This document shows, one piece after another, positions 1 to 9,947 of a stretch of 9,947 nt of DNA. The notes below the pieces were generated by a model. The model saw only the letters and a list, made by a program, of their open reading frames with translations, searched no databases and was not told the DNA's origin. Numbering within the stretch: position 1 is the first letter of the stretch; the number at the start of each line of letters is the position of its first letter. Source of the DNA: Bacteroidales bacterium (GTDB taxonomy: Bacteria; Bacteroidota; Bacteroidia; Bacteroidales; UBA7960); assembly GCA_003553005.1 (NCBI GenBank), contig PUPG01000164.1, forward strand, positions 1 through 9,947. Direction: 5' to 3'. Both the position numbers and the translations under genes were made by a program.

Positions 1-2306
1 ACAGTGAGCCCGCCGACGTGCAGATGCCCAACTTCAGCAGCTGGGGCCCCACCAACGACGGGCGGATCAAGCCCGACCTGGTGGCCAGTGGCATCGAACT
101 CTATTCCACGTCCTCCCAGTCGACCAACCATTATACCACAATGAGCGGCACCTCGATGGCCGCTCCCGTCGTCAGCGGCACCGTTGGCCTCCTGTTGCAG
201 CAATACAATCAAACCTACGGACACGACGCGGTGAGCTCCGCCACCATGAAGGGCCTGCTCATCCACACGGCCGACCAGGCAAGCCCACACGCCGGTCCCG
301 ACTACAGCCACGGCTGGGGTGTGCTGAACGCCCACGAAGCGGCTCGGGTGATTTCCAGGGACGCTTCCAAGGGCAAGGAGTTCCTCATCCGGGAGCTCAC
401 CTTGCACGAGGGCGACACCATCCACCTGCCCTTCTGGGCTTCCGGAGAGGAGCCCCTGCGGGCGACCATCGCGTGGATCGATCCGCCCGGCGACATCCCG
501 CCATCTTCGCTGAATCCCCCGGACCTGGTGCTGGTGAACGACCTGGACATGCGATTGATTGACAGCGAGGGCAAGAGCCACAAGCCCTACATCCTGGATC
601 CGGCAAACCCGGCGCAGCCAGCGGCCACCGGCGACAATTTTCGCGACAACGTAGAGCAAATCTTCATTCCGGATGCAGCGGCCGGCAACACCTACACCCT
701 GCAAATCACACACAAGGGAGCACTGGAGGATGGCCGCCAGGATGTGTCCCTGATCATCACCGGGGTGGAACAGGCCACCACCTTTACTGGTCCCGGTGAA
801 CAGTGGGACGACCCGGAAAACTGGACGAATGGGGTGCCCGAAACCGGCGATCACATCATCCTCTCCTCCGAAGGCACGGCTTCGCTGCACGTCGAAGAAG
901 CCAGGACCGCCACCAACATTTACATCGAAGACGGGGCCCTGTTGACCATTGGCGCCCACGGTGCCCTCGACGTGAAAGGTAACATCTATGCCGAAAACGA
1001 TGCCATTCCAGGCATCCTGATCCGGTCGACCACAGAAGGTACCGGATCGCTGATCCATCACACCCCAGGCATTCCCATCGAGATGGAAAGCCACGTGGAT
1101 GCACACGTTCGCGCACAGGACGCCGCAAGCCTGCTGAGCGCACCGGTCGCCGGACAGTCCTTCGCGTCGCTGGTGGCGTCGCACGACCTGGATCAAACGC
1201 TTTTTTCCCGGTGGGATGAAGTCCAGGGAGACTGGCAGTCCTTGTGGGACGAAGACGATGGCTGGCTGCAGGACGACCTGCTGCCGGGCAGCGGCTACCT
1301 TTACGACGGAGACCCCGGTCCGGTGATCAGCTATCGCGGCCACGCGACCGTAGCGGACCTCTCCCCCGGGGCCTTAAGCATTACGCCAGGCACGGGGGAA
1401 GGCTGGCACCTGCTGGGGAACCCCTTTGCCGCCGGATTGCATTGGGATGTCCACCAATGGCAGCTTTCGGGCATTGCCCACACGGCCAAGATCTGGCAAA
1501 ACGGAGGTTACGTCGACCTGCCCGCAGGCGAGGGCATCATCCCACCTGCGCACGCCTTTTTCGTCCAGGCCTTCGATGAGGCCAATGCGCTGACGATCCC
1601 GGAGGCAGCCCGCACCCACGACAGCATCGCCGAGGTGCCCGCGGACGAAGCGCGTCTCCGGATGATGGTCACTGCCACGGAACACGACGCACAGCAACAA
1701 AGCCTGGTCAGGCTGACCCACGAGGCATCTGAAGGGTTTGACACACGATTTGATTCGCACTTCCTGGAAGGCCTGGGGCCGGTATTCTATTCGGTGAAGG
1801 ATGGCATCCCACTCTCTACGCTTGCCCTGCCTTCCGACGCCGATGACCTGAGGCTGCGCTTTTATTTTCATTCCGCAGAGCCCGGCAGGGAGTACACTTT
1901 GCACCTCCTGGACAACAACATCGACGTGCCGTTTTATCTTTACGACAAACACACCGGCGAGCTGCACGACCTGGACGAAGACCGCCCCTATGGCTTTGTG
2001 GCTTCTGCTAACCAGCACGCCTGGCCCCGGTTTGAGCTGCACATCACCTCATCCTTCATCCCTACCGGCACAGATGAGCCAACAGAGCCGCCACACCAGG
2101 TATGGTACCATTCCGGCGAGCTCCATTACGCAGTCGACGACCTGCCAGCCAGGATCACCATCTATGCCGTGGACGGCCGGCAGATCGCCTCCCACCAGCT
2201 AGCATCCCCTACGGGCAGCATCCCGGCTCCGGTGCGTGCCGGCATCTATCTTGCCGAGATCTCCACCAACGGCAGCAGGCAGGTGACCCGGATCCTCGTC
2301 CAATAG
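1..2306 (+). CDS. Secreted subtilisin-like serine protease (peptidase S8) with T9SS C-terminal sorting domain, 5' end missing
   Basis: This is the C-terminal part of a large extracellular endopeptidase. The reading frame is open from base 3, and the first GTG (base 18) lies inside the catalytic domain, so the true start is upstream of the window. Counting from that GTG, residues 5-24 hold the conserved subtilase stretch FSSWGPTNDGRIKPDLVASG, and GTSMAAP at 44-50 contains the catalytic Ser46. The catalytic Asp and His must lie upstream. Residues about 125-250 form a beta-sandwich typical of S8 proteases (NDLDMRL at 174-180). A spacer with a GNW-like motif (ENWTNGVPETGD, 268-279) follows, and residues about 370-530 resemble Bacteroidota surface-protein modules (WHLLGNPF, 463-470). 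The last 70 residues (ITIYAVDGRQIAS ... AGIYLAEIS) are a T9SS type A sorting domain, which predicts export across the outer membrane. The gene converges on the minus-strand cluster and is unlikely to share its transcript. Confidence 0.93.
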   Translation, partial: SEPADVQMPNFSSWGPTNDGRIKPDLVASGIELYSTSSQSTNHYTTMSGTSMAAPVVSGTVGLLLQQYNQTYGHDAVSSATMKGLLIHTADQASPHAGPDYSHGWGVLNAHEAARVISRDASKGKEFLIRELTLHEGDTIHLPFWASGEEPLRATIAWIDPPGDIPPSSLNPPDLVLVNDLDMRLIDSEGKSHKPYILDPANPAQPAATGDNFRDNVEQIFIPDAAAGNTYTLQITHKGALEDGRQDVSLIITGVEQATTFTGPGEQWDDPENWTNGVPETGDHIILSSEGTASLHVEEARTATNIYIEDGALLTIGAHGALDVKGNIYAENDAIPGILIRSTTEGTGSLIHHTPGIPIEMESHVDAHVRAQDAASLLSAPVAGQSFASLVASHDLDQTLFSRWDEVQGDWQSLWDEDDGWLQDDLLPGSGYLYDGDPGPVISYRGHATVADLSPGALSITPGTGEGWHLLGNPFAAGLHWDVHQWQLSGIAHTAKIWQNGGYVDLPAGEGIIPPAHAFFVQAFDEANALTIPEAARTHDSIAEVPADEARLRMMVTATEHDAQQQSLVRLTHEASEGFDTRFDSHFLEGLGPVFYSVKDGIPLSTLALPSDADDLRLRFYFHSAEPGREYTLHLLDNNIDVPFYLYDKHTGELHDLDEDRPYGFVASANQHAWPRFELHITSSFIPTGTDEPTEPPHQVWYHSGELHYAVDDLPARITIYAVDGRQIASHQLASPTGSIPAPVRAGIYLAEISTNGSRQVTRILVQ

Positions 2307-2486: not shown

Positions 2487-3854
2487 TTACCGCTTGATCC
2501 ACGACTTGCTGATGGTCTCTCTGCCCGCAGTAAGGCGGAGGACATAGGCGCCCGCAGGCAGGTCAGAGACATCCAGGGAGATGGCTTCACCGGGTACGTA
2601 ACCCGGCCTGGCGTGCATCACCAGGCGGCCGTCGGACGCACGCACTTCGACCGAAAGACCTTCCCCGGTTTCTCCCGGGAAGGCATTTTTCAGCTCCAGG
2701 TGGAGCAGGTCCTCTGCCGGGTTGGGGTAAAGTTTTAGGTTCAGACCCGTTTTTTCAGGCCCTTGGATGCTGGTATCATCCTCCTCTCCCGCCACAAACA
2801 GATCGCCGTCCACCACATACCAAAAATCCCATTCGCCGCCCTCGCCTTCTTCCCAGCCGTCGATATCAAACCAGCCGCTTCCTTCAAAATCACCTTTCAC
2901 TTTGTATCCCCGGATGGCTTCCTGGTCCCGTTCCCAGTGCAGGGGTTCGCCGGAGACGCAGGTTTCTGGCGGTCCGCCATATTGCTGCAGGAAATAGGCA
3001 TAATCGTCGTATGCAGGATCGCCAAAGACCCGGGCCTTTCCCGTTTCATCCACCGCGATGGCGGTATATTCGTTGGCCGCGATCCCGCGCGCATCCATAT
3101 CCCAGTCGGCGACCATCCTGGCCATAAAGCCCACGTGCCGCCCGTGGCGGTTCATCCCGTCGTCGTGAATGCGGTTGTAATGGCTGTCCGTGACCGTTTG
3201 TTCCATAAAGGGAACCTCCAGGAAGTCCTTTTCCAGCTTCATTCGCCAGTGGTAGGGGTTGGAAAGGGCTTCTGAAGACCACACGGTGCCTTCTTCTGCG
3301 GTGAACACCACCTCACCCAGAACCGCCATTCCGGCGCTGGTCCCGCCAATGGTAATCTGCTTGTCGTGGATCAGTCCGTTAAGCGCCTCCAGCAACTGGC
3401 TGTCGCGCCACTCATCTACATAGTGCCACTGGTTGCCCCCGGCAATGAACACCACCTCCGCTTCGGCGACGATGTCGAGCACCTCCTGGCTATCTGCATC
3501 TTCCGGTCCGGTGATCACGATGGACGTTACCGAGTTGACCTCCACGCCCAGTCCGCTATAGAGGTAATCGTTGTACCCATCTGAGCCCGTGGCCCGGAGC
3601 ACCACGACGTCGCCGCCATCGGCTCGCTGCAGCATCCAGGTCATCGCGTCGTCGTTGTCGCTTTCCCCGCCCGCCAGCACCAGTCCAGGCAAATGATCCG
3701 TGTCTGCGGGCTCTTCATTGCCCGTATGGTAGATCTCCTGGGTCCAACCAGCAGTCCCTGCCAAAACCAATAAAATCGTCAATAGTCCTTGCATACGTCT
3801 CGTTTTTGCCATAAAGTGAAATCCCAAAAAACCGATAAACAGGTAACTTTTCAT
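2487..3854 (-). CDS. Cyanophycinase-like peptidase S51 with signal peptide and T9SS sorting domain
   Basis: This is a predicted secreted serine peptidase of family S51 (cyanophycinase/dipeptidase E fold), 455 residues from the ATG at 3854. The catalytic domain spans about 57-290: AGG at 61-63, the loop FIAGGNQ at 136-142, the nucleophile elbow GGTSAG with Ser173, the catalytic His225 in DSHYNR, and the probable catalytic Glu262 in NEYTAI. Residues about 305-355 (LHWERD ... WYVVDGDL) look like a family-specific C-terminal extension. Residues 371-455 (LNLKLYPNPAEDLLHLEL, then LPAGAYVLRL) are a T9SS type A sorting domain, so the enzyme should be released or anchored at the cell surface. Compared with CphB, the Gln before the catalytic His is Ser224, and about seven extra residues precede the RHGR segment, so the substrate may differ. 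Start: the 3854 ATG has GGAG four bases upstream (3859-3862), but the in-frame ATGs at 3812 and 3794 give a cleaner signal peptide (MAKTRRMQGLLTILLVLAG). Confidence 0.9.
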   Translation of the reverse strand: MKSYLFIGFLGFHFMAKTRRMQGLLTILLVLAGTAGWTQEIYHTGNEEPADTDHLPGLVLAGGESDNDDAMTWMLQRADGGDVVVLRATGSDGYNDYLYSGLGVEVNSVTSIVITGPEDADSQEVLDIVAEAEVVFIAGGNQWHYVDEWRDSQLLEALNGLIHDKQITIGGTSAGMAVLGEVVFTAEEGTVWSSEALSNPYHWRMKLEKDFLEVPFMEQTVTDSHYNRIHDDGMNRHGRHVGFMARMVADWDMDARGIAANEYTAIAVDETGKARVFGDPAYDDYAYFLQQYGGPPETCVSGEPLHWERDQEAIRGYKVKGDFEGSGWFDIDGWEEGEGGEWDFWYVVDGDLFVAGEEDDTSIQGPEKTGLNLKLYPNPAEDLLHLELKNAFPGETGEGLSVEVRASDGRLVMHARPGYVPGEAISLDVSDLPAGAYVLRLTAGRETISKSWIKR

Positions 3855-3953
3855 TTAACTCCAGTGTTCGCGCCCCACACAGTTTGCTCCAAACACCATT
3901 GGGGGCCTCATAACGCACGCCGCTTCCATTTGCCTTGCAGGGAAAGCCTCCCG

Positions 3954-3995
3954 GCCAGCCAGAATCTTCATCCGCCCCCGGTCACGGCGGCTGGC
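3954..3995 (-). other. Hairpin just downstream of the YfcC gene
   Basis: Exact 7-base inverted arms GCCAGCC (3954-3960) and GGCTGGC (3989-3995) lie immediately after the YfcC stop codon. A GC-rich loop between them can form a competing CCGCC/GGCGG pairing (3972-3976 with 3986-3990). There is no T run, so it could be an mRNA-stabilising or processing element rather than an intrinsic terminator. The rest of the 144-base gap 3855-3998 shows no promoter that I can defend. Confidence 0.3.
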
Positions 3996-3998
3996 AGC

Positions 3999-5612
3999 CT
4001 AAAACCCCGAAAGATCCATCGTCACCGTGGGTATCAGCAGCAGGAAGCCAAGCAGGATCAGGATGGCGATCAGCGGGGCGACCCATTTGACCCATTTGTG
4101 GTAGGGGATGCGGGCCACGCCGAGCACGGCGATGAGTACCCCCGACGTGGGAGTGATCATGTTGGTAAAGCCATCGCCGAACTGGAAGGCCATCACGGTG
4201 GCCTGCCTGGAGATGTCAATCAGGTCGCTGAAGGGCGCCATGATGGGCATGGTGATGGCCGCCTTGGCTGAGCCGCTTGGAATCACGATGTTGACGATGG
4301 TCTGGATCACGTACATCACACCCACGGAGGCCACGCTGCCAAACTGGCCCAGCGAACGACTCAGTCCGTAAAGAATGCTGTCGATGATGCCGCCATCCTC
4401 CAGCACCACGATGATGCCCCCGGCCAGTCCGACGATGATGGCGGCCGACATGATGTCCTTGACCCCGTCGAGGAAGGAGGTGGCGATGTCGTTGGCATCC
4501 TTTTGGACGGCAAGCCCTGCAGCGATCCCCATTCCGAGGAAGAGGGTGGCGATCTCCATCACATACCACTGGTAGCCCATCACGCCCACGATCAGGAAGA
4601 GGATGGTGTAGGCCAGCAGCAGGAGGATGAAGAAGTGCACGGACTTTTGGAGCGTCCAGATCCCGGCGAGGGCAAAGACCACGGTGGCCACGGGGATCAC
4701 GGTAATGGTGGCTGAGGAGGCGCCCACGGTCAGCGTAGACACCGGGTACATCACCGAAAAGATGGCGAGCACCAGCAGGACCGCCCCATACACGTACCAG
4801 GCCATCCTAGGCGTATAATAGGTGATGTTGTTCACGTCGCTGGCCTCTCGTTTGCGCCAGTAGCTGTCTTCTTCATACATGATGGAACGCGTGGGGTCCT
4901 TGCGGATCCGGGCCACGTATCGCAGGACAAAGGCGATGCCCACGACGTTGATCACCAACCAGGCAAACAGGCGGTATTCGAGTCCGGAGAAGAGGGGCAG
5001 GTCGGCGAGGCCCTGGGCGATCCCGATGGTAAAGGGGTTGAGGATGGCGCCCGCAAAGCCCAGGTGGGCGCCGATGTAGACCATGCACACCCCGGTAATG
5101 CTATCGTAACCCATGGAGATTGCCAGCGGGATCAGGATGATCACGAAGGCGATGGTTTCCTCGCTCATCCCGAAGATGGCGCCGAAGGCGCTGAACAGCA
5201 GCATCACCATCACGATGATGATGTTGTCCACCCCCAGCCGCCGCATCGTGGCGTTGCTTTCGAGCCTTCGGGCGTAGCGCAGGAAGGACATGATGCCCAC
5301 ATCGATGGCTTTGGTCTGGTTCATGATCCAGAAGGCGCCGCCGATCATCAGGATGAACACGATGATGTTGGACTGGCGGACAAAGCCGTTGAAGAGCGCA
5401 GACAGCACCTGCCAGGTCTGTGGCTGGCTGTCGAGGGTATGGCCCTCCGGCAGCTGGTCTTCGTAGTAAAAGACCATCGTGGTCTGTTCCCTGCCATCGA
5501 TGACCACCGTTTCCTCAATGTATTTTCCCGGTGGAATGAACCAGGTGAGCACGGCGGCCACGATGATGATGAAAAACACGATGACGTAGGTGTGGGGTAT
5601 CTTCTTCAGCAT
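3999..5612 (-). CDS. YfcC-family inner-membrane carrier (DcuC/ArcD-like superfamily)
   Basis: This is a polytopic cytoplasmic-membrane transporter of the YfcC family (Pfam DcuC-like, ion transporter superfamily). Characterised or predicted relatives carry C4-dicarboxylates, basic amino acids or peptides. It is 537 residues from an ATG with no evident Shine-Dalgarno site. Hydrophobic helices start at 8-27 (TYVIVFFIIIVAAVLTWFIP) and continue through 520-530. The hallmark C-terminal block is well kept: NIVIPSGSAKAAITMP at 441-456, SRQATVMAFQFGDGFTN at 468-484 and PTSGVLIAVLGVARIP at 488-503. These paired re-entrant-type segments are the likely substrate path. It is somewhat longer than I expect for the family, with a hydrophilic linker at about 233-268 and an additional hydrophobic region at about 270-345. 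It lies between two S51 peptidase genes on the same strand, with gaps of 144 and 94 bases. This context suggests uptake of their products (for example beta-Asp-Arg, Arg or Asp). The substrate cannot be read from sequence. Confidence 0.9.
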   Translation of the reverse strand: MLKKIPHTYVIVFFIIIVAAVLTWFIPPGKYIEETVVIDGREQTTMVFYYEDQLPEGHTLDSQPQTWQVLSALFNGFVRQSNIIVFILMIGGAFWIMNQTKAIDVGIMSFLRYARRLESNATMRRLGVDNIIIVMVMLLFSAFGAIFGMSEETIAFVIILIPLAISMGYDSITGVCMVYIGAHLGFAGAILNPFTIGIAQGLADLPLFSGLEYRLFAWLVINVVGIAFVLRYVARIRKDPTRSIMYEEDSYWRKREASDVNNITYYTPRMAWYVYGAVLLVLAIFSVMYPVSTLTVGASSATITVIPVATVVFALAGIWTLQKSVHFFILLLLAYTILFLIVGVMGYQWYVMEIATLFLGMGIAAGLAVQKDANDIATSFLDGVKDIMSAAIIVGLAGGIIVVLEDGGIIDSILYGLSRSLGQFGSVASVGVMYVIQTIVNIVIPSGSAKAAITMPIMAPFSDLIDISRQATVMAFQFGDGFTNMITPTSGVLIAVLGVARIPYHKWVKWVAPLIAILILLGFLLLIPTVTMDLSGF

Positions 5613-5706
5613 GGATCAACGATTTAAGACGTGCTTGTTCACAGGTTAAACGAGGTCTCAGTGTTGACTCTTGGCGACCGGTCAATAACTGTCTTTTGCT
5701 GGTAAA

Positions 5707-6585
5707 TTAGCGATCGGTGATTGGTTTTTGGCTGATGGCAAATCGTTCGCCGGGCAGGAACACGTCCAGCTGCAGGTTTCGGCCGCCCAGCTTATCTTCA
5801 TATTGGGTTTGGGATGCGTCCGGGTTTCTGTACACCAGCACCTGGGCTATTCCTACCACTTCGGCTTCATTGCCGTGGACCAGGATGGCGGTGGATTCGT
5901 CGATGCCAATGCCTGGCAGCTCCGGGTATTCCAGCACGGAGGTGATCAGGCGGTTATGTCGGCTTCTCCACACGAAGTGCTGATCGATCACGGCGGTAGT
6001 CAGCAGGCCCAGTCCTTCGGCGATCTCCAGGTTTTCCGACTCGATCACCGGAAAGGTGGGGCGGTACTCGGGGTAACGCAGCTCGTCGCCGGTAATCATT
6101 TTTTCGCTCATCACGGCAGCACCGGCGCTGGTCCCGGCAATCAAGGCGCCATCGGCATAGGCTTCGTGGATCGCCTCCATCACCGGACCGTCGTAGACGA
6201 TGTCCATGAAGCGATTCTGATCACCCCCGCTGATGTAGATCAGTGGGGCATTCCTGACGGAGTCCACCCACTCCGTGGGCGGTTCTTCGGCGGGCAGGAA
6301 GTTAAAACCGGCAATGCGGGTGATGCCTTGCTCCAGGAACTGTTCGCTGGCCCAGATGATGGCCGAGTCGGGTTCGGCGCTGGACATTGGCAGGATGGCT
6401 ACATAGCCTTCATCCCAGATGCCGGCTTCGTCGATCATCCGCTCGACCATCTCGGCGGGACGGCTGCCGCCGCCGATAATGAACAGGCTTCCTTCCGGGT
6501 GTTCCTCTGCGGCCCTTTCAGCAGCCGGCTGACAGGACACGGCAGTCAACAAAGCCAGCACAATGTATAACTGGGTTGTCTTCAT
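5707..6585 (-). CDS. Cyanophycinase-type peptidase S51, predicted lipoprotein
   Basis: This is a predicted exo-acting serine peptidase of family S51, closest in motifs to cyanophycinase (CphB), which cuts cyanophycin into beta-Asp-Arg dipeptides. It is 292 residues from the ATG at 6585, close to the usual size for the catalytic domain alone. The upstream in-frame TTG at 6603 is a less likely start. Residues 1-18 are a lipoprotein signal with a loose lipobox (AVSC, Cys18), so the enzyme is probably tethered to a membrane facing the periplasm or surface. Motifs: FIIGGG at 35-40, ISGGDQ at 118-123, GTSAGA with nucleophile Ser153, DQHF with catalytic His203, and GIDESTA with catalytic Glu230. The His-Glu spacing (27) equals that of CphB (His174/Glu201, from memory). 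DQHFVWRSRHNR (201-212) keeps the Asp, Gln and three Arg of the CphB substrate pocket. It differs from the other S51 gene here by lacking the T9SS tail. Peptidase E-like dipeptidase activity on Asp-X is the main alternative. Confidence 0.92.
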   Translation of the reverse strand: MKTTQLYIVLALLTAVSCQPAAERAAEEHPEGSLFIIGGGSRPAEMVERMIDEAGIWDEGYVAILPMSSAEPDSAIIWASEQFLEQGITRIAGFNFLPAEEPPTEWVDSVRNAPLIYISGGDQNRFMDIVYDGPVMEAIHEAYADGALIAGTSAGAAVMSEKMITGDELRYPEYRPTFPVIESENLEIAEGLGLLTTAVIDQHFVWRSRHNRLITSVLEYPELPGIGIDESTAILVHGNEAEVVGIAQVLVYRNPDASQTQYEDKLGGRNLQLDVFLPGERFAISQKPITDR

Positions 6586-6650
6586 GGGTTTATGTTTTTG
6601 CAAATTATTGGTTATCTGAATCTTATGTTTTCAACAGGAGTGCTATTGGC
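6586..6650 (-). repeat. Duplicated leader, copy A, upstream of the S51 lipoprotein gene
   Basis: This roughly 65-base leader is a near copy of 7642-7707. Shared exact blocks on the plus strand are TTTTGCAAATTATT, GGTTATCTGAA and a 21-base block at 6630-6650 containing CAACAGGAGTGCTATTGGC. The 21-base block lies 45 bases from this start codon and 46 from the other. Read on the minus strand, TAATTTGC just before the A-rich leader resembles the Bacteroidota -7 element (TAnnTTTG), with a TTG about 24 bases further upstream. That spacing is a little long, so the promoter reading is tentative, while the repeat itself is certain. Confidence 0.75.
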
Positions 6651-6699
6651 TTTTGGCTATTAGCTTTGGCTTTCTTGCCAATAGCCAATGGCCAATAGC
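6642..6699. repeat. Long imperfect inverted repeat of GCTATTGGC units
   Basis: GCTATTGGC at 6642-6650 is the exact reverse complement of GCCAATAGC at 6691-6699. The next arm, TTGGCTAT at 6653-6660, pairs with ATAGCCAA at 6681-6688. The result is 17 pairs interrupted by one 2-base mismatch, closing a 20-base loop. The element lies between the PKD lipoprotein stop and the duplicated leader of the S51 lipoprotein gene. It could be a terminator without a T run, an mRNA-stabilising stem, or a dispersed intergenic repeat. Confidence 0.7.
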
Positions 6700-6753
6700 C
6701 TGCTTAGCTATAATCACCCTCCTGTGTGTCGAAAAAACGTCATGGGCGTTTCA

Positions 6754-7641
6754 TCACAGGCTACCTGCAAACAGGTGAATGTCCGTGAGCACGATCGACC
6801 AGAGGTCGGTGGAGTCGTGGTGCCTGAAGGCCACGTGGATCTCTTCCCCGGCAAACTCCGAGAGGTCGAGTGAGCGCAGCGCCCACACCCAGTTTTCCAT
6901 CTCCGGGTCGAGCCGTTCGCTGTATATGGTTTCAAAATCATCGACTTCGGTTCCGGTGGTGGACACCAGCACGCTGTACTTCTCTGTCCGGAAGTCGGGA
7001 TCGTTGGCCCTTGGGGTCACGTAGAACTCCAGCACCGTTTCGCCGTGTTCAGTAAGGTCGATGGGTGGGGTAATGATCCAATTGTCCGGCTCGAGCACAT
7101 CTCCCGTGCTTTGGTCCCAGGAGTCGGACAAGATATAATACTCCGTCTCGTCATCGCCTTCGAAGCTGTCCCAATACCAGTTGTTGCCATCACCGTTCAG
7201 GTCGATCAGCGTCCATCCTTCCGGTGGGAAGTCTTCCTCCAGTGCGGGGTCGTCGAAGCGCTCCCGGAAGATCGTGGACACCAGGCTCAGGCGCTCGGAA
7301 GCTTCCAGCTTGTTATAGTGCAACTCCTTTTCCGGCTCCACCGTCAGGGTCACCTCATACACGCCGTCGGCTTCGTAGACCTCCACGGGGTGCTTTTCGT
7401 CTGACGTGTTTCCATTGCCAAAGTCCCAGTGATGGCTCACCGCGTGCAGGGACTTGTTTTCGAAAGAGACCTCATAATGGATCTCCCCGGTGTCGTCATC
7501 TGTTTTTACCTCGACCGTATAGTCGAATGCAGCCTGGGTGCTTGGTGCGGGCACCTCCAGGTCATCGTCCGAGCAGGCGTTCAGACCCACGATCAGCGCC
7601 GGTACGATCAGCAGGCTCATTATTTTCAGCAAGGTTTTCAT
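6754..7641 (-). CDS. PKD and choice-of-anchor-J domain surface lipoprotein
   Basis: This is a predicted substrate-binding or adhesive lipoprotein with no visible catalytic motif. It is 295 residues from the ATG at 7641, and an in-frame TTG at 7659 is a less likely start. The signal peptide ends in lipobox LNAC with Cys23, followed by SDDD, which resembles the Bacteroidota lipoprotein export signal that sends lipoproteins to the cell surface. Residues about 38-115 form a PKD-type Ig fold (HHWDFGNGNTS at 70-80). Residues about 125-295 are a jelly-roll choice-of-anchor-J/cleaved-adhesin domain, with ERFDD, PPEGWTLIDLNGDGNNWYW (139-157), PDNWIITPPIDL (185-196), and VWALRSLDLSEFAGEEIHVAFRH (252-274). 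It lies 90 bases after susD, the position where SusE/SusF-type binding lipoproteins sit in polysaccharide loci. A role in capturing the locus's substrate is inferred from that position. It carries its own duplicated leader, so it may also have its own promoter. Confidence 0.85.
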   Translation of the reverse strand: MKTLLKIMSLLIVPALIVGLNACSDDDLEVPAPSTQAAFDYTVEVKTDDDTGEIHYEVSFENKSLHAVSHHWDFGNGNTSDEKHPVEVYEADGVYEVTLTVEPEKELHYNKLEASERLSLVSTIFRERFDDPALEEDFPPEGWTLIDLNGDGNNWYWDSFEGDDETEYYILSDSWDQSTGDVLEPDNWIITPPIDLTEHGETVLEFYVTPRANDPDFRTEKYSVLVSTTGTEVDDFETIYSERLDPEMENWVWALRSLDLSEFAGEEIHVAFRHHDSTDLWSIVLTDIHLFAGSL

Positions 7642-7707
7642 GTGTTTACTGTTTTGCAAATTATTTGGTTATCTGAAGTTTAGGTGTTCAACAGGAGTGC
7701 TATTGGC
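7642..7707 (-). repeat. Duplicated leader, copy B, upstream of the PKD lipoprotein gene
   Basis: This is the second copy of the 6586-6650 leader. The 21-base block recurs at 7687-7707 and the TTTTGCAAATTATT block ends close to the start codon, as in copy A. It fills most of the 90-base gap after susD. Past 7707 this copy continues into CATTGGC, TTTTAGC and TGTTGGC units (7708-7729), the same degenerate family as the hairpin beside copy A, but without the inverted arm. A -7-like TAATTTGC on the minus strand makes a promoter possible. Confidence 0.75.
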
Positions 7708-7731
7708 CATTGGCTTTTAGCTGTTGGCTTT

Positions 7732-9075
7732 TTAATAACAGTCATTCTGGTACATCTCCTCGTGGAAGTTGGTCAGCAGCTCACCCAAGGGGATGGGGAA
7801 GAGCGTGTAGCATTCGTCATCCAGGCCATCCAGTTCTTCCACCGCCCTGCCGCTGCGCACGAGGTCAAACCAGCGATGCCCTTCGAAGGCAAACTCCAGC
7901 TGCCGGGTTTCGTGGATGATGTCGAGCAGTTCTGCCGGATCGGTGGTATCTACCGGATCCAGGCCTGCCCTTTCGCTCACCACGTTTACGTCGTCGCGTG
8001 CCTGGTCGAGGTTTTCACCGAGCAGGGCGTGGGCCTCCGCGCGGATGAGGTACATCTCTGCCAGTCGCAGGATATACACGTTGTCGGTTCCCGTCTCGAT
8101 GTCATCGTATTTGATGGCATAGAAGTTATCGCCATCGATCGCGATGGACAGGTCCCGGCGCACGTCGCCTTCATCGTACCGCTCGTACAGCGTTTCGGTC
8201 GGCGAGAACTCCCTTCTTCCGCTCAGCGATGTCGGGAAGAAGTACTCCGCCAGCCTGTTGCGTGCCTGTTCATAGAAGTCCACTTCAAAGATGCTTTCGC
8301 TATTGTGGCCGTCGGCAAACAGGTTTTCGAAGGGCACGAGGGCGAGGCCGTAGTCTTCGATGACGGACGTGGCTTCGGCGGCGGCGGTCGCCAGTTGCCC
8401 CTCTTGTCCGTGAATGGCATATTCAAATAGGCTGACCCGTGCCCTGAGGGCTTGCACGGCAGCCTTTGACGCCAACCCTTGCTCCACGTTGGTCCGCAGG
8501 TAGGCCTCCGCAAAATCGAGGTCGTCGTGCACCTGCATAAACACATCGGCATAAGGCCTGCGGGGCACGTTGAGGTCGCCCTCGTCCTCGGTGGCTGGCG
8601 TCGTGCGGATGGGCACCGGACCAAACATACGCACCAGGTCGAAATGGGCCAGGGCGCGCAGGAACTTCAGCTCCGCCGTGTAGGCATTGGCCTCATCGCC
8701 GGTAAGCTCATCCACCTGGGGAATTTGTGCGATGGTGTGGTTGGCGCGGTTGATCATCCGGTAGATGTCCGCCCAGATCCCTTCCACGATTACGTTGTCG
8801 GCCAGGATGCTGTTGTTGTCCATCTGGTTGTACCCGGCCGTGGTTCCTGTCCAGGCGAGGTTATCGGCAGGCAGGTCGCCGGCCACCAGAAAGTTCCGGC
8901 CATAATAGCCTGCAGCCTGCAGTGCAGAATAGGTGCCGGTGATGGCACTTTCCACGTCGGCTTTGCTTTCGATGGCTTCTTCGCCCGGGATGCTGTGATA
9001 GGGTTCGACATCCAGCACGTCGCATGCGGAGAAGGCGAACAACAGCAGCAGGGGCAGCAATATTGTTTTTTTCAT
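7732..9075 (-). CDS. SusD/RagB-family outer-membrane nutrient-binding lipoprotein
   Basis: This is the surface lipoprotein partner of the SusC-type transporter encoded just before it. SusD proteins form the lid that hands glycans or peptides to the SusC barrel. It is 447 residues from the ATG at 9073-9075, somewhat short for the family (usually about 480-600). The signal peptide MKKTILLPLLLLFAFSAC has its lipidated Cys at 18. The N-terminal SusD-like region includes SAITGTYSALQAAGYYGRN (43-61) and IYRMINRANHTIAQIPQV (104-121). The TPR-bearing core includes the hallmark AELKFLRALAHFDLVRMFGPVPI (134-156). The C-terminal RagB region holds YILRLAEMYLIRAEAHA (334-350), RQLEFAFEGHRWFDLVR (391-407) and LFPIPLGEL (425-433). 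The motifs are intact, so the gene looks functional. The substrate class cannot be told from SusD sequence alone; the neighbouring S51 peptidases point to peptides rather than glycans. Confidence 0.96.
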   Translation of the reverse strand: MKKTILLPLLLLFAFSACDVLDVEPYHSIPGEEAIESKADVESAITGTYSALQAAGYYGRNFLVAGDLPADNLAWTGTTAGYNQMDNNSILADNVIVEGIWADIYRMINRANHTIAQIPQVDELTGDEANAYTAELKFLRALAHFDLVRMFGPVPIRTTPATEDEGDLNVPRRPYADVFMQVHDDLDFAEAYLRTNVEQGLASKAAVQALRARVSLFEYAIHGQEGQLATAAAEATSVIEDYGLALVPFENLFADGHNSESIFEVDFYEQARNRLAEYFFPTSLSGRREFSPTETLYERYDEGDVRRDLSIAIDGDNFYAIKYDDIETGTDNVYILRLAEMYLIRAEAHALLGENLDQARDDVNVVSERAGLDPVDTTDPAELLDIIHETRQLEFAFEGHRWFDLVRSGRAVEELDGLDDECYTLFPIPLGELLTNFHEEMYQNDCY

Positions 9076-9112
9076 TTTATCTGGGATTTATTTGTTTTTA
9101 CAATGCGTTTGG

Positions 9113-9170
9113 GTGCCCGTCCGCCGGCTGGTTGCCGTGCTGGCCTGGTGCTGACCACCAGGACGGGCAC
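9113..9170 (-). other. GC-rich hairpin between susC and susD
   Basis: Perfect 10-base inverted arms GTGCCCGTCC (9113-9122) and GGACGGGCAC (9161-9170) enclose 38 bases. A competing inner hairpin, CCTGGTG (9144-9150) with CACCAGG (9156-9162), overlaps one arm by two bases, so the two folds could be alternatives. On the transcript the outer stem is followed by CCCAAACGC and not by a U run. It may therefore mark an mRNA processing or stability point that lets the susC and susD levels differ, rather than full termination. The remaining bases of the 111-base gap are an A/T-rich leader for susD. Confidence 0.45.
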
Positions 9171-9186
9171 GTGTCGTCCAGCGGCT

Positions 9187-9947
9187 TTAGATGTCGAGGC
9201 TCACGCCAAGCGAAATGGTGCGCACCTGCGGGTGGGTAAAGAAGTCCGTGCCCCTTCTGAGGTCATCGGCACCGGCATAGTTCACTTCCGGGTCCATCCC
9301 GCTGTAATTGGTGAAGGTGAGCACGTTTTCGCCGGAGATGAACACCCGTGCGCTGCGCATACCCATCCTGGCGGCAGATTCCGGGGTAAAGCGGTAGGAC
9401 AGCCTCAGGTTTTTCACCCGGAGGTAAGAGCCATCTTCAATGAAGCGGCTGGAGACCCTGTTGTTGTTATTGGGATCCAGCTCCGTGGCCCTCGGGATGT
9501 CCGTCTCGTCGCCCGGCTGTTGCCAGCGGTCAAGCACAGCGGTGGTCTGGTTGTCCTCGCCCTTCATCGACTCGATGTAGATGCGGGTGCCGTTGAAGAT
9601 GTCGTTGCCATAAGAAAACTGCAGGAAGACGCTCAGCTCGAAGTTCTGGTAGCGGAACCGGTTGGTCAGGCCGCCCGTGAAGTCGGGGTTGGGGTCTCCG
9701 ATTTTGGTCCGGTCTTCCGAGGTGATCTGTCCGTCGCCATTGATGTCGGCAAACACGATGTCGCCGGTCGAGGGGTCCACACCCAGGCTCTTGTATCCAT
9801 AAAAGATTCCGATGGGTTCCCCTTCCCTGACGCTGTTGCTGCCTCTTCCGAGGTTGTCCAGGGGTTGTCCCTGGTACAGCTCAAGCACCTTGTTCCGGTT
9901 CCTGCTGATGTTGAAGTCGGTAGACCAGGAGAACACCGCGTTGTCGA
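9187..9947 (-). CDS. SusC/RagA-family TonB-dependent outer-membrane transporter, C-terminal part
   Basis: This is the last 253 codons or so of a SusC-type transporter. These are 22-stranded beta-barrels that import oligomers with TonB energy, capped by a SusD lipoprotein. The frame is open to the window edge and the first possible start (GTG, 9936) is inside conserved barrel sequence, so the signal peptide, carboxypeptidase-like N-terminal domain and plug are outside the window. Visible SusC hallmarks, counted from that GTG, are FSWSTDFNISRNRNKVLEL (2-20), GEPIGIFYGYKSLGVDPSTG (39-58), the DINGDGQITSEDRTKIGDPN stretch (64-83), DGSYLRVKNLRLSYRF (167-182) and FISGENVLTFTNYSGMDPEV (199-218). The final residues RTISLGVSLDI are a typical last strand. 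Its pairing with susD, 111 bases downstream, defines the importer of this locus. No frameshift or truncation other than the window edge was seen. Confidence 0.96.
   Translation of the reverse strand, partial: DNAVFSWSTDFNISRNRNKVLELYQGQPLDNLGRGSNSVREGEPIGIFYGYKSLGVDPSTGDIVFADINGDGQITSEDRTKIGDPNPDFTGGLTNRFRYQNFELSVFLQFSYGNDIFNGTRIYIESMKGEDNQTTAVLDRWQQPGDETDIPRATELDPNNNNRVSSRFIEDGSYLRVKNLRLSYRFTPESAARMGMRSARVFISGENVLTFTNYSGMDPEVNYAGADDLRRGTDFFTHPQVRTISLGVSLDI

Follow-up and report, generated by a model that had tools for sequence, protein, structure and literature searches.

The window analysed here is the whole stretch of 9,947 bp at positions 1 to 9,947 of contig PUPG01000164.1 (assembly GCA_003553005.1), from a Bacteroidales bacterium. 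On its minus strand, from 2487 to 9945, there is a block of six genes, separated by 90–168 bp when counted from the ATG starts, which appears to be a locus for the use of cyanophycin, a polymer of arginine and aspartate that cyanobacteria and other bacteria make for storage. The six same-strand genes, from SusC to an S51 peptidase exported by the type IX secretion system (T9SS), had been listed in an earlier reading made from the letters of the window (the sequence-only reading), and all are present, with matches to the profiles of their families. SusC is incomplete, present as its C-terminal 252 aa, and the name YfcC holds for the carrier at the level of the family but not as an equivalog. 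The genes of the window are as follows, with identities to the proteins of L002, the nearest locus of useful length, which is from a Bacteroidales metagenome-assembled genome (MAG), isolate B1Sed10_143R1, presumably of a soda-lake series.

9187..9945, minus strand: susC, C-terminal 252 aa, the gene running off the window (TIGR04056 211.8 bits, cut-off 368.25; 94% identical to the C-terminus in L002)
7732..9075, minus strand: susD, surface lipoprotein (PF07980 94.2 bits, PF14322 79.3 bits; 87% identical)
6754..7641, minus strand: lipoprotein with PKD and Cleaved_Adhesin/choice-of-anchor-J domains, here called PKDJ (PF07675 86.0 bits, PF18911 42.8 bits, NF038128 86.2 bits; 84% identical)
5707..6585, minus strand: S51 peptidase of the cyanophycinase type, probably a lipoprotein, 292 aa when read from the ATG, where the list of open reading frames (ORFs) starts at TTG 6603 (TIGR02069 145.4 bits; 89% identical)
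3999..5612, minus strand: YfcC/DcuC-family inner-membrane carrier, 537 aa (PF03606 339.4 bits, NF008611 367.7 bits; 98% identical)
2487..3854, minus strand: second S51 peptidase, with a Por_Secre (T9SS) tail, likely start ATG 3812 or 3794 (PF03575, PF18962, TIGR04183; 75% identical)
3..2306, plus strand: S8 subtilase with a T9SS tail, truncated at its 5' end by the window edge, convergent with the operon

The SusC score is below its cut-off, as would be expected of a fragment; the whole protein is known from relatives and is 979 aa in L002. The susC and susD genes are co-directional in the window, and the PKDJ gene sits between susD and the S51 gene in the relatives too. The mature N-terminus of PKDJ, C-S-D-D-D, resembles what we take to be the Bacteroides surface-export signal. 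The carrier reaches the DcuC family model (PF03606) and is below the cut-off of 500 bits of the YfcC model (NF008611).

The S51 lipoprotein is above the cut-off of the cyanophycinase model (126.6 bits), and on the PepE model it scores 36.2 bits against a cut-off of 156. The catalytic Ser-His-Glu of CphB, of which the serine is marked in structure entry 7uqw (titled S132DAP), is kept in the alignment, the predicted fold is that of S51, and the pocket residues are in line with those of CphB. Identity to the CphB entries in structural alignment is 27–28%. Taken together, the scores and the alignment support the prediction that this is a cyanophycinase-type peptidase. Its relatives were found in 23 of 198 sampled genomes (E 1e-40) and in 19 of 395 (E 1e-70), the centre genome being counted in each; on plasmids there are distant relatives only, the best at 35.8% identity.

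The second S51 peptidase has a T9SS sorting domain above the cut-offs (TIGR04183 29.5 against 23 bits; PF18962 32.9 against 27 bits). The best Foldseek matches of its predicted model (mean pLDDT 86) are the cyanophycinase entries 7uqv, 7uqw, and 3en0, at target-normalised TM-scores of 0.69–0.77, and the catalytic triad has its counterparts in a Ser, a His, and a Glu of this protein. By fold and triad it is cyanophycinase-like, rather than a member of the cyanophycinase family. A homologue follows YfcC or an M20-family peptidase in L002, L006, L008, L012, L021–L028, and L036.

One scan of genome contigs with S51 gave 80 loci. In L002 the order is iadA-susC-susD-PKDJ-S51-yfcC-S51(T9SS), all in one direction, and its IadA, at 476.8 bits, is above the 331.25 bits set as the cut-off of the isoaspartyl dipeptidase model. 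The order SusC-SusD-PKDJ-S51-YfcC is present in L002–L005, L009, L011–L015, L017, L020, L076, and L078 (L004 and L005 reach the contig end), and since it recurs in this way across loci it is not due to chance. The sequence-only reading had staked its case on S51 and YfcC being conserved with SusCD, and the block is indeed conserved in the relatives. It had also proposed that an isoaspartyl dipeptidase be looked for nearby, and iadA is directly upstream of susC in L002, L003, L004, and L012. There is no adjacent iadA beside the five-gene block in L011, L013–L015, L017, L020, L076, and L078, nor in L009, the contig of which starts in SusC. Among the 19 genomes searched in which the YfcC of the S51 locus is 54–98% identical to that of the window (L002–L004, L006, L008–L020, L076, L078), IadA is above the cut-off in 18, the exception being L006. 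By analogy with the near relatives, iadA is expected in the source genome just outside the window.

The first match of the scan, L001, is 4.8 kb only and lies on a contig labelled Halorubrum, an archaeon, which carries this Bacteroidales operon at 84–94% protein identity; the contig is probably misbinned.

The SusC fragment was also used as the query against 247 genomes drawn from the order (E 1e-60), with S51 at E 1e-70 from a draw of the same size made by the same request. There are SusC matches in 43 of the 247 genomes, most at 45–53% identity. This S51 is present in 12 of the 247 (centre genome included), and all 12 are among the 21 best SusC matches. In a further 8 genomes the SusC is at least 57% identical and this S51 is not present; there, another S51 and IadA are near SusC in six (L176–L180, L182), two of which also have YfcC (L179, L182). 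The position of SusC in L179 is from the SusC search, as neither SusC nor SusD was listed there by the ORF picking. The remaining two, L175 and L181, lie near a contig end and show neither S51 nor IadA in the short stretch. L183, with SusC at 52% identity, has neither S51 nor IadA, and is the sole locus inspected among the genomes without this S51 that have a SusC below 57%. The six of eight argue that the SusC clade is linked to isoaspartyl-peptide enzymes; to judge from these neighbourhoods, the close clade is tied to them even where the S51 subtype differs.

The dipeptidases near S51 were counted in a pool of 121 loci, 80 from the contig scan and 41 from drawn genomes. L070 has no S51 ORF of at least 150 bits and 20 of the other 120 have less than 3 kb on either side, which leaves 100 usable Bacteroidota loci, no two of which are 99% or more identical in S51. 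There is an IadA, IaaA, or M20-family peptidase within 8 kb of S51 in 57 of these (IadA 12, IaaA 23, exported M20 14, PepT-like M20 8), and within 300 bp in 44 of the 57. The linkage is seen in 34 of the 62 contig-scan loci and in 23 of the 38 drawn-genome loci. Weak amidohydrolase matches (34–35 bits) in L025, L027, and L028 and a glycosylasparaginase-like ORF in L136 are left out of the counts. A SusC label is within 8 kb in 76 of the 100 loci, of which only 66 have a SusC of at least 400 bits; the count of 76 is not leaned on, because the remainder are weak matches.

The kind of dipeptidase differs between groups. In the Flavobacteriia (L021–L028, L032, L035, L036) the order is sigma-FecR-SusC-(SusD)-PKD-PKD-S51-M20, with no SusD ORF kept in L032, and a T9SS S51 follows the M20 gene except in L032 and L035. 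When one M20 protein was compared with solved structures, it matched carboxypeptidase G2 (1cg2) at 91.3 bits and, weakly, a poly(aspartic acid) hydrolase (7ljh) at 25.9 bits. All 13 of the M20 proteins compared have a hydrophobic N-terminus. As beta-Asp-Arg is chemically an N-acyl-arginine, it is a plausible candidate substrate for M20 enzymes. Pedobacter and its kin have IaaA/Asparaginase_2 with a signal peptide beside S51, and in other genomes a short cytosolic IaaA or a PepT-like M20 is found there. The suggestion that the M20 genomes are without another isoaspartyl enzyme was rejected, since there are Asparaginase_2 genes in all 10 of those searched (10 of the 14 usable loci, with L024, L032, L038, and L156 outside the search), in 8 cases no more than 4 kb from the genome's own cyanophycin synthetase. 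IadA was above the cut-off in none of these 10 (G020 has one split by stop codons).

In another clade (L137, L159–L162) the S51 gene is followed by one for a protein of 728–733 aa, of which the only one scanned, that of L137, belongs to the penicillin-amidase family. In L159–L162 it is preceded by one for a protein of 492–500 aa, of which again a single example was scanned, an M28 peptidase in L159. These neighbours could be further candidates for dipeptide splitting.

Whether the hosts make the polymer differs as well. Cyanophycin synthetase is above the cut-off in 16 of the 47 genomes searched: eight with M20 loci (L021, L022, L025–L028, L035, L036), six of the Pedobacter type (L059–L061, L063, L064, L066), L030, and the YfcC-type L078. 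The YfcC-type L009, L014, L020, and L076 have long synthetase matches below the cut-off (691–784 against 850 bits). In the genomes of L002, L003, L004, and L012 there is no synthetase above the cut-off, with short Mur-ligase-like matches only, and no Asparaginase_2. These near relatives of the window thus look like scavengers, to judge from their genomes, with IadA there the only isoaspartyl dipeptidase from the two families that were searched for.

Five Bacteroidales relatives of the YfcC type encode, next to iadA or close to it, a protein of 565–636 aa (L081:4497-6407, L082:8503-10410, L083:2409-4304, L084:5670-7367, L085:4141-5838), which matches only about positions 100–572 of the 862 of cyanophycin synthetase, presumably its ATP-grasp half. 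This protein may act as a minimal CphA2-like enzyme, joining imported beta-Asp-Arg into polymer again. Another S51 gene is nearby in L081 and L083; that of L081 scores 210 bits on the cyanophycinase model and has no apparent N-terminal signal.

In the raw counts, the presence of YfcC follows the compartment of the dipeptidase. It is found in 15 of 27 loci with a cytosolic dipeptidase against 1 of 30 with an exported one, L149, the start of which is doubtful (Fisher p 9e-6), and without L149 the contrast is 15 of 27 against 0 of 29 (p 1e-6). In these counts IadA was assigned to the cytosol without scoring, and two loci were left as scored: L149, scored exported with a start that is probably over-extended, and L072, scored cytosolic, which looks like a lipoprotein. 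With thinning by S51 identity, p is 0.0002 at 80%, 0.008 at 70%, 0.16 at 60%, 0.10 at 55%, and 0.34 at 50%, and on the tree the 'exported' state changes 4 times, giving 2–3 independent pairs, which is too few for a test. As the contrast fades on thinning and the changes on the tree are few, the compartment rule is a lead and not a result.

The company that YfcC keeps with cytosolic dipeptidases suggests that it imports beta-Asp-Arg. That it carries arginine, aspartate, or ornithine rather than the dipeptide is a rival for this one step that we hold to be doubtful, if well worth keeping in view: the NCBIfam name for the family is 'putative basic amino acid antiporter', and there is no YfcC within 8 kb in 12 of the 27 loci with a cytosolic dipeptidase. 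A carrier of free amino acids should, however, accompany the exported dipeptidases, where YfcC is seen at L149 alone, and in two loci with an exported IaaA (L139, L141) there is a DctA-type carrier beside S51 instead; the YfcC contrast is lost, though, when related loci are thinned strongly. A tentative proposal, somewhat short of probable, is that the cyanophycin loci of the Bacteroidota have two topologies. In one, a YfcC/DcuC-family carrier would import beta-Asp-Arg, to be split in the cytosol by IadA, a short IaaA, or a PepT-like M20. In the other no YfcC would be needed, as a carboxypeptidase-G2-like exported M20 or an IaaA with a signal peptide would split the dipeptide outside the inner membrane and the free amino acids would be taken up. 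If true, this would assign a substrate to the YfcC family and make M20-family enzymes candidates for the isoaspartyl dipeptidases of the Bacteroidota; in excerpts of PMC10206079 the isoaspartyl dipeptidases of Firmicutes and Bacteroidota are called undiscovered.

The operon very probably scavenges cyanophycin (multi-arginyl-poly-aspartate) or its direct beta-aspartyl peptides. This is based on the genes and their order and conservation, the family scores, the S51 lipoprotein with its catalytic residues and predicted fold, and the isoaspartyl dipeptidases linked to the loci of relatives. At the cell surface, SusD and the PKDJ lipoprotein would bind the polymer or fragments of it, and the T9SS-exported S51 would begin cutting outside the cell. 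Oligomers would be imported by SusC, and the S51 lipoprotein would release beta-Asp-Arg dipeptides from them. The YfcC-family carrier would take these through the inner membrane, and cytosolic IadA would split them into aspartate and arginine. The substrate, the compartment of each step, the cargo of YfcC, and the presence of iadA in the source genome are all inferred. The sequence-only reading, which had proposed a locus for cyanophycin or isoaspartyl peptides, is supported by the S51 lipoprotein scoring above the cut-off, the conserved block, iadA upstream of susC in relatives, and IaaA or M20 near S51 elsewhere.

Several points weigh against this interpretation. The nearest solved structure to the S51 lipoprotein, at 35% identity, is titled 'pseudo-CphB', a protein reportedly inactive; since the aligned catalytic residues are kept in pseudo-CphB too, conservation of residues is no proof of activity. 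The T9SS S51 is far below the cyanophycinase cut-off (TIGR02069 46.0 against 126.6 bits), and the Gln that follows the Asp in CphB is Ser in this protein (Thr or Gln in some relatives). No IadA is encoded in the 9.9 kb of the window, which breaks off within susC, and IadA is above the cut-off in none of the five genomes with a distant YfcC (L041, L048, L057, L062, L068; 37–49% identity); at three of these loci (L048, L062, L068) there is a cytosolic IaaA. In 43 of the 100 usable loci none of the four dipeptidase kinds is within 8 kb. Isoaspartyl peptides from aged proteins would also suit the same enzymes.

This last point leads to the alternative that the locus is for general scavenging of isoaspartyl (beta-aspartyl) peptides, for example from aged or partly digested protein, and not for cyanophycin as such. 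The likeness to pseudo-CphB and the secreted subtilase that adjoins the operon in the convergent direction would fit this, as would the promiscuity of IadA and IaaA, which accept many isoaspartyl dipeptides (PMC10206079, in excerpt). Two exported S51 enzymes, one of them above the cyanophycinase cut-off, with a SusCD pair suited to oligomers, argue instead for the polymer. To our knowledge, activity of a cyanophycinase on ordinary isoaspartyl peptides has not been reported. The orthologous arrangement in a Salinivirgaceae MAG (L033) also bears on the question, as a cyanophycin-directed locus has been reported in that family (excerpts of PMC10206079), and the alternative is on balance unlikely. 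A general oligopeptide importer similar to RagAB, with S51 peptidases of the aspartyl dipeptidase type that are there incidentally, is more improbable still. RagAB is a SusCD peptide importer, for which oligopeptide uptake is cited in PMC9723704, and the S51 family includes PepE. The S51 lipoprotein is, however, far below the PepE cut-off, isoaspartyl-type dipeptidases are linked to S51 loci, and the close SusC clade has IadA and S51 in six of eight further loci. It is scarcely credible that the S51 enzymes are a defence against peptidyl-nucleotide antibiotics of the MccG kind. Enzymes of S51 clade V do inactivate microcin C (PMC9239234, in excerpt), but MccG acts inside the cell, whereas both S51 enzymes of the window look exported and the S51 score and neighbourhood are cyanophycinase-like; microcin C resistance was rejected on these grounds.

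Of the rest of the window, the S8 subtilase was rejected as part of the locus, as it is convergent and its sole BLAST match across the 80 loci has 8% coverage. No tRNA is present in the window. Two long open frames, 8479–9945 on the plus strand (489 aa) and 3–1343 on the minus strand (447 aa), lie antisense to real genes; the genome being rich in G+C, they are regarded as probable shadow frames and not as genes. There is also a mostly intergenic 95-bp repeat with a palindrome of the type GCTATTGGC, the two copies of which (6593–6687 and 7650–7744) are 76% identical and lie 5' of the S51 lipoprotein and PKDJ genes. The copy before the S51 gene looks like an insertion, because the PKDJ and S51 genes of L002 overlap by 4 bp.

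If the cyanophycin interpretation holds, a SusCD-linked system for a storage polymer that is not a glycan recurs across the Bacteroidota, with the proviso that not every such S51 locus has a SusC. The locus would link nitrogen stored as cyanophycin to scavenging bacteria, and the comparison of loci offers candidate functions for the YfcC-family carrier and for M20 enzymes. Among the literature matches listed, with most subscription papers outside the coverage, there is no earlier statement of a role for YfcC with cyanophycin or isoaspartyl peptides and no earlier description of the YfcC-containing arrangement; a search on SusD with cyanophycin degradation, of the same coverage, likewise turned up no previous mention of this role for YfcC.

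In comparison with known systems, the window shares with glycan polysaccharide utilisation loci a SusC, a SusD, and a surface lipoprotein, and some relatives have genes for ECF sigma factors and FecR at their loci. It differs in that no carbohydrate-active enzyme family is among the profile matches of the seven window proteins, for which reason a glycan locus was rejected. RagAB imports peptides rather than glycans through a SusCD pair, and the likeness to it lies there; the accessory enzymes differ, being of the cyanophycinase family in the window and also of isoaspartyl dipeptidase families in the relatives. With CphB and CphE (TIGR02069) the S51 lipoprotein shares the S51 fold and the catalytic Ser-His-Glu, and it differs from them in being a probable lipoprotein with low identity to the CphB entries and with pseudo-CphB as its nearest structure.

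The closest parallel is with Salinivirga cyanobacteriivorans L21-Spi-D4, where the complex is said to be called homologous to polysaccharide utilisation loci in the abstract of Ben Hania et al. 2017. To these authors is credited, in excerpts of PMC10206079, a cyanophycin utilisation locus in this strain with cyanophycinase genes, iadA, and a transporter, and a similar cluster is mentioned there in Flammeovirga pacifica. Two S51 proteins of this kind, one of them bearing a Por domain, are present in S. cyanobacteriivorans (PMC6243061, in excerpt), as they are in the window, which is likewise from the Bacteroidota. Cyanophycin has also been proposed as a substrate of a TonB-dependent transporter, from a Citromicrobium locus (PMC3400609, in excerpt). 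The Salinivirgaceae MAG locus L033 has an orthologous S51-SusC-SusD-PKDJ, its SusC being 51% identical over the full length to that of L002. In L167, a locus similar to L033, iadA and a second S51 are on the opposite strand with no YfcC within the stretch, whereas in the window operon yfcC lies between the two S51 genes. This kind of locus is already in print for S. cyanobacteriivorans, and the window operon adds another member, with an arrangement that contains YfcC.

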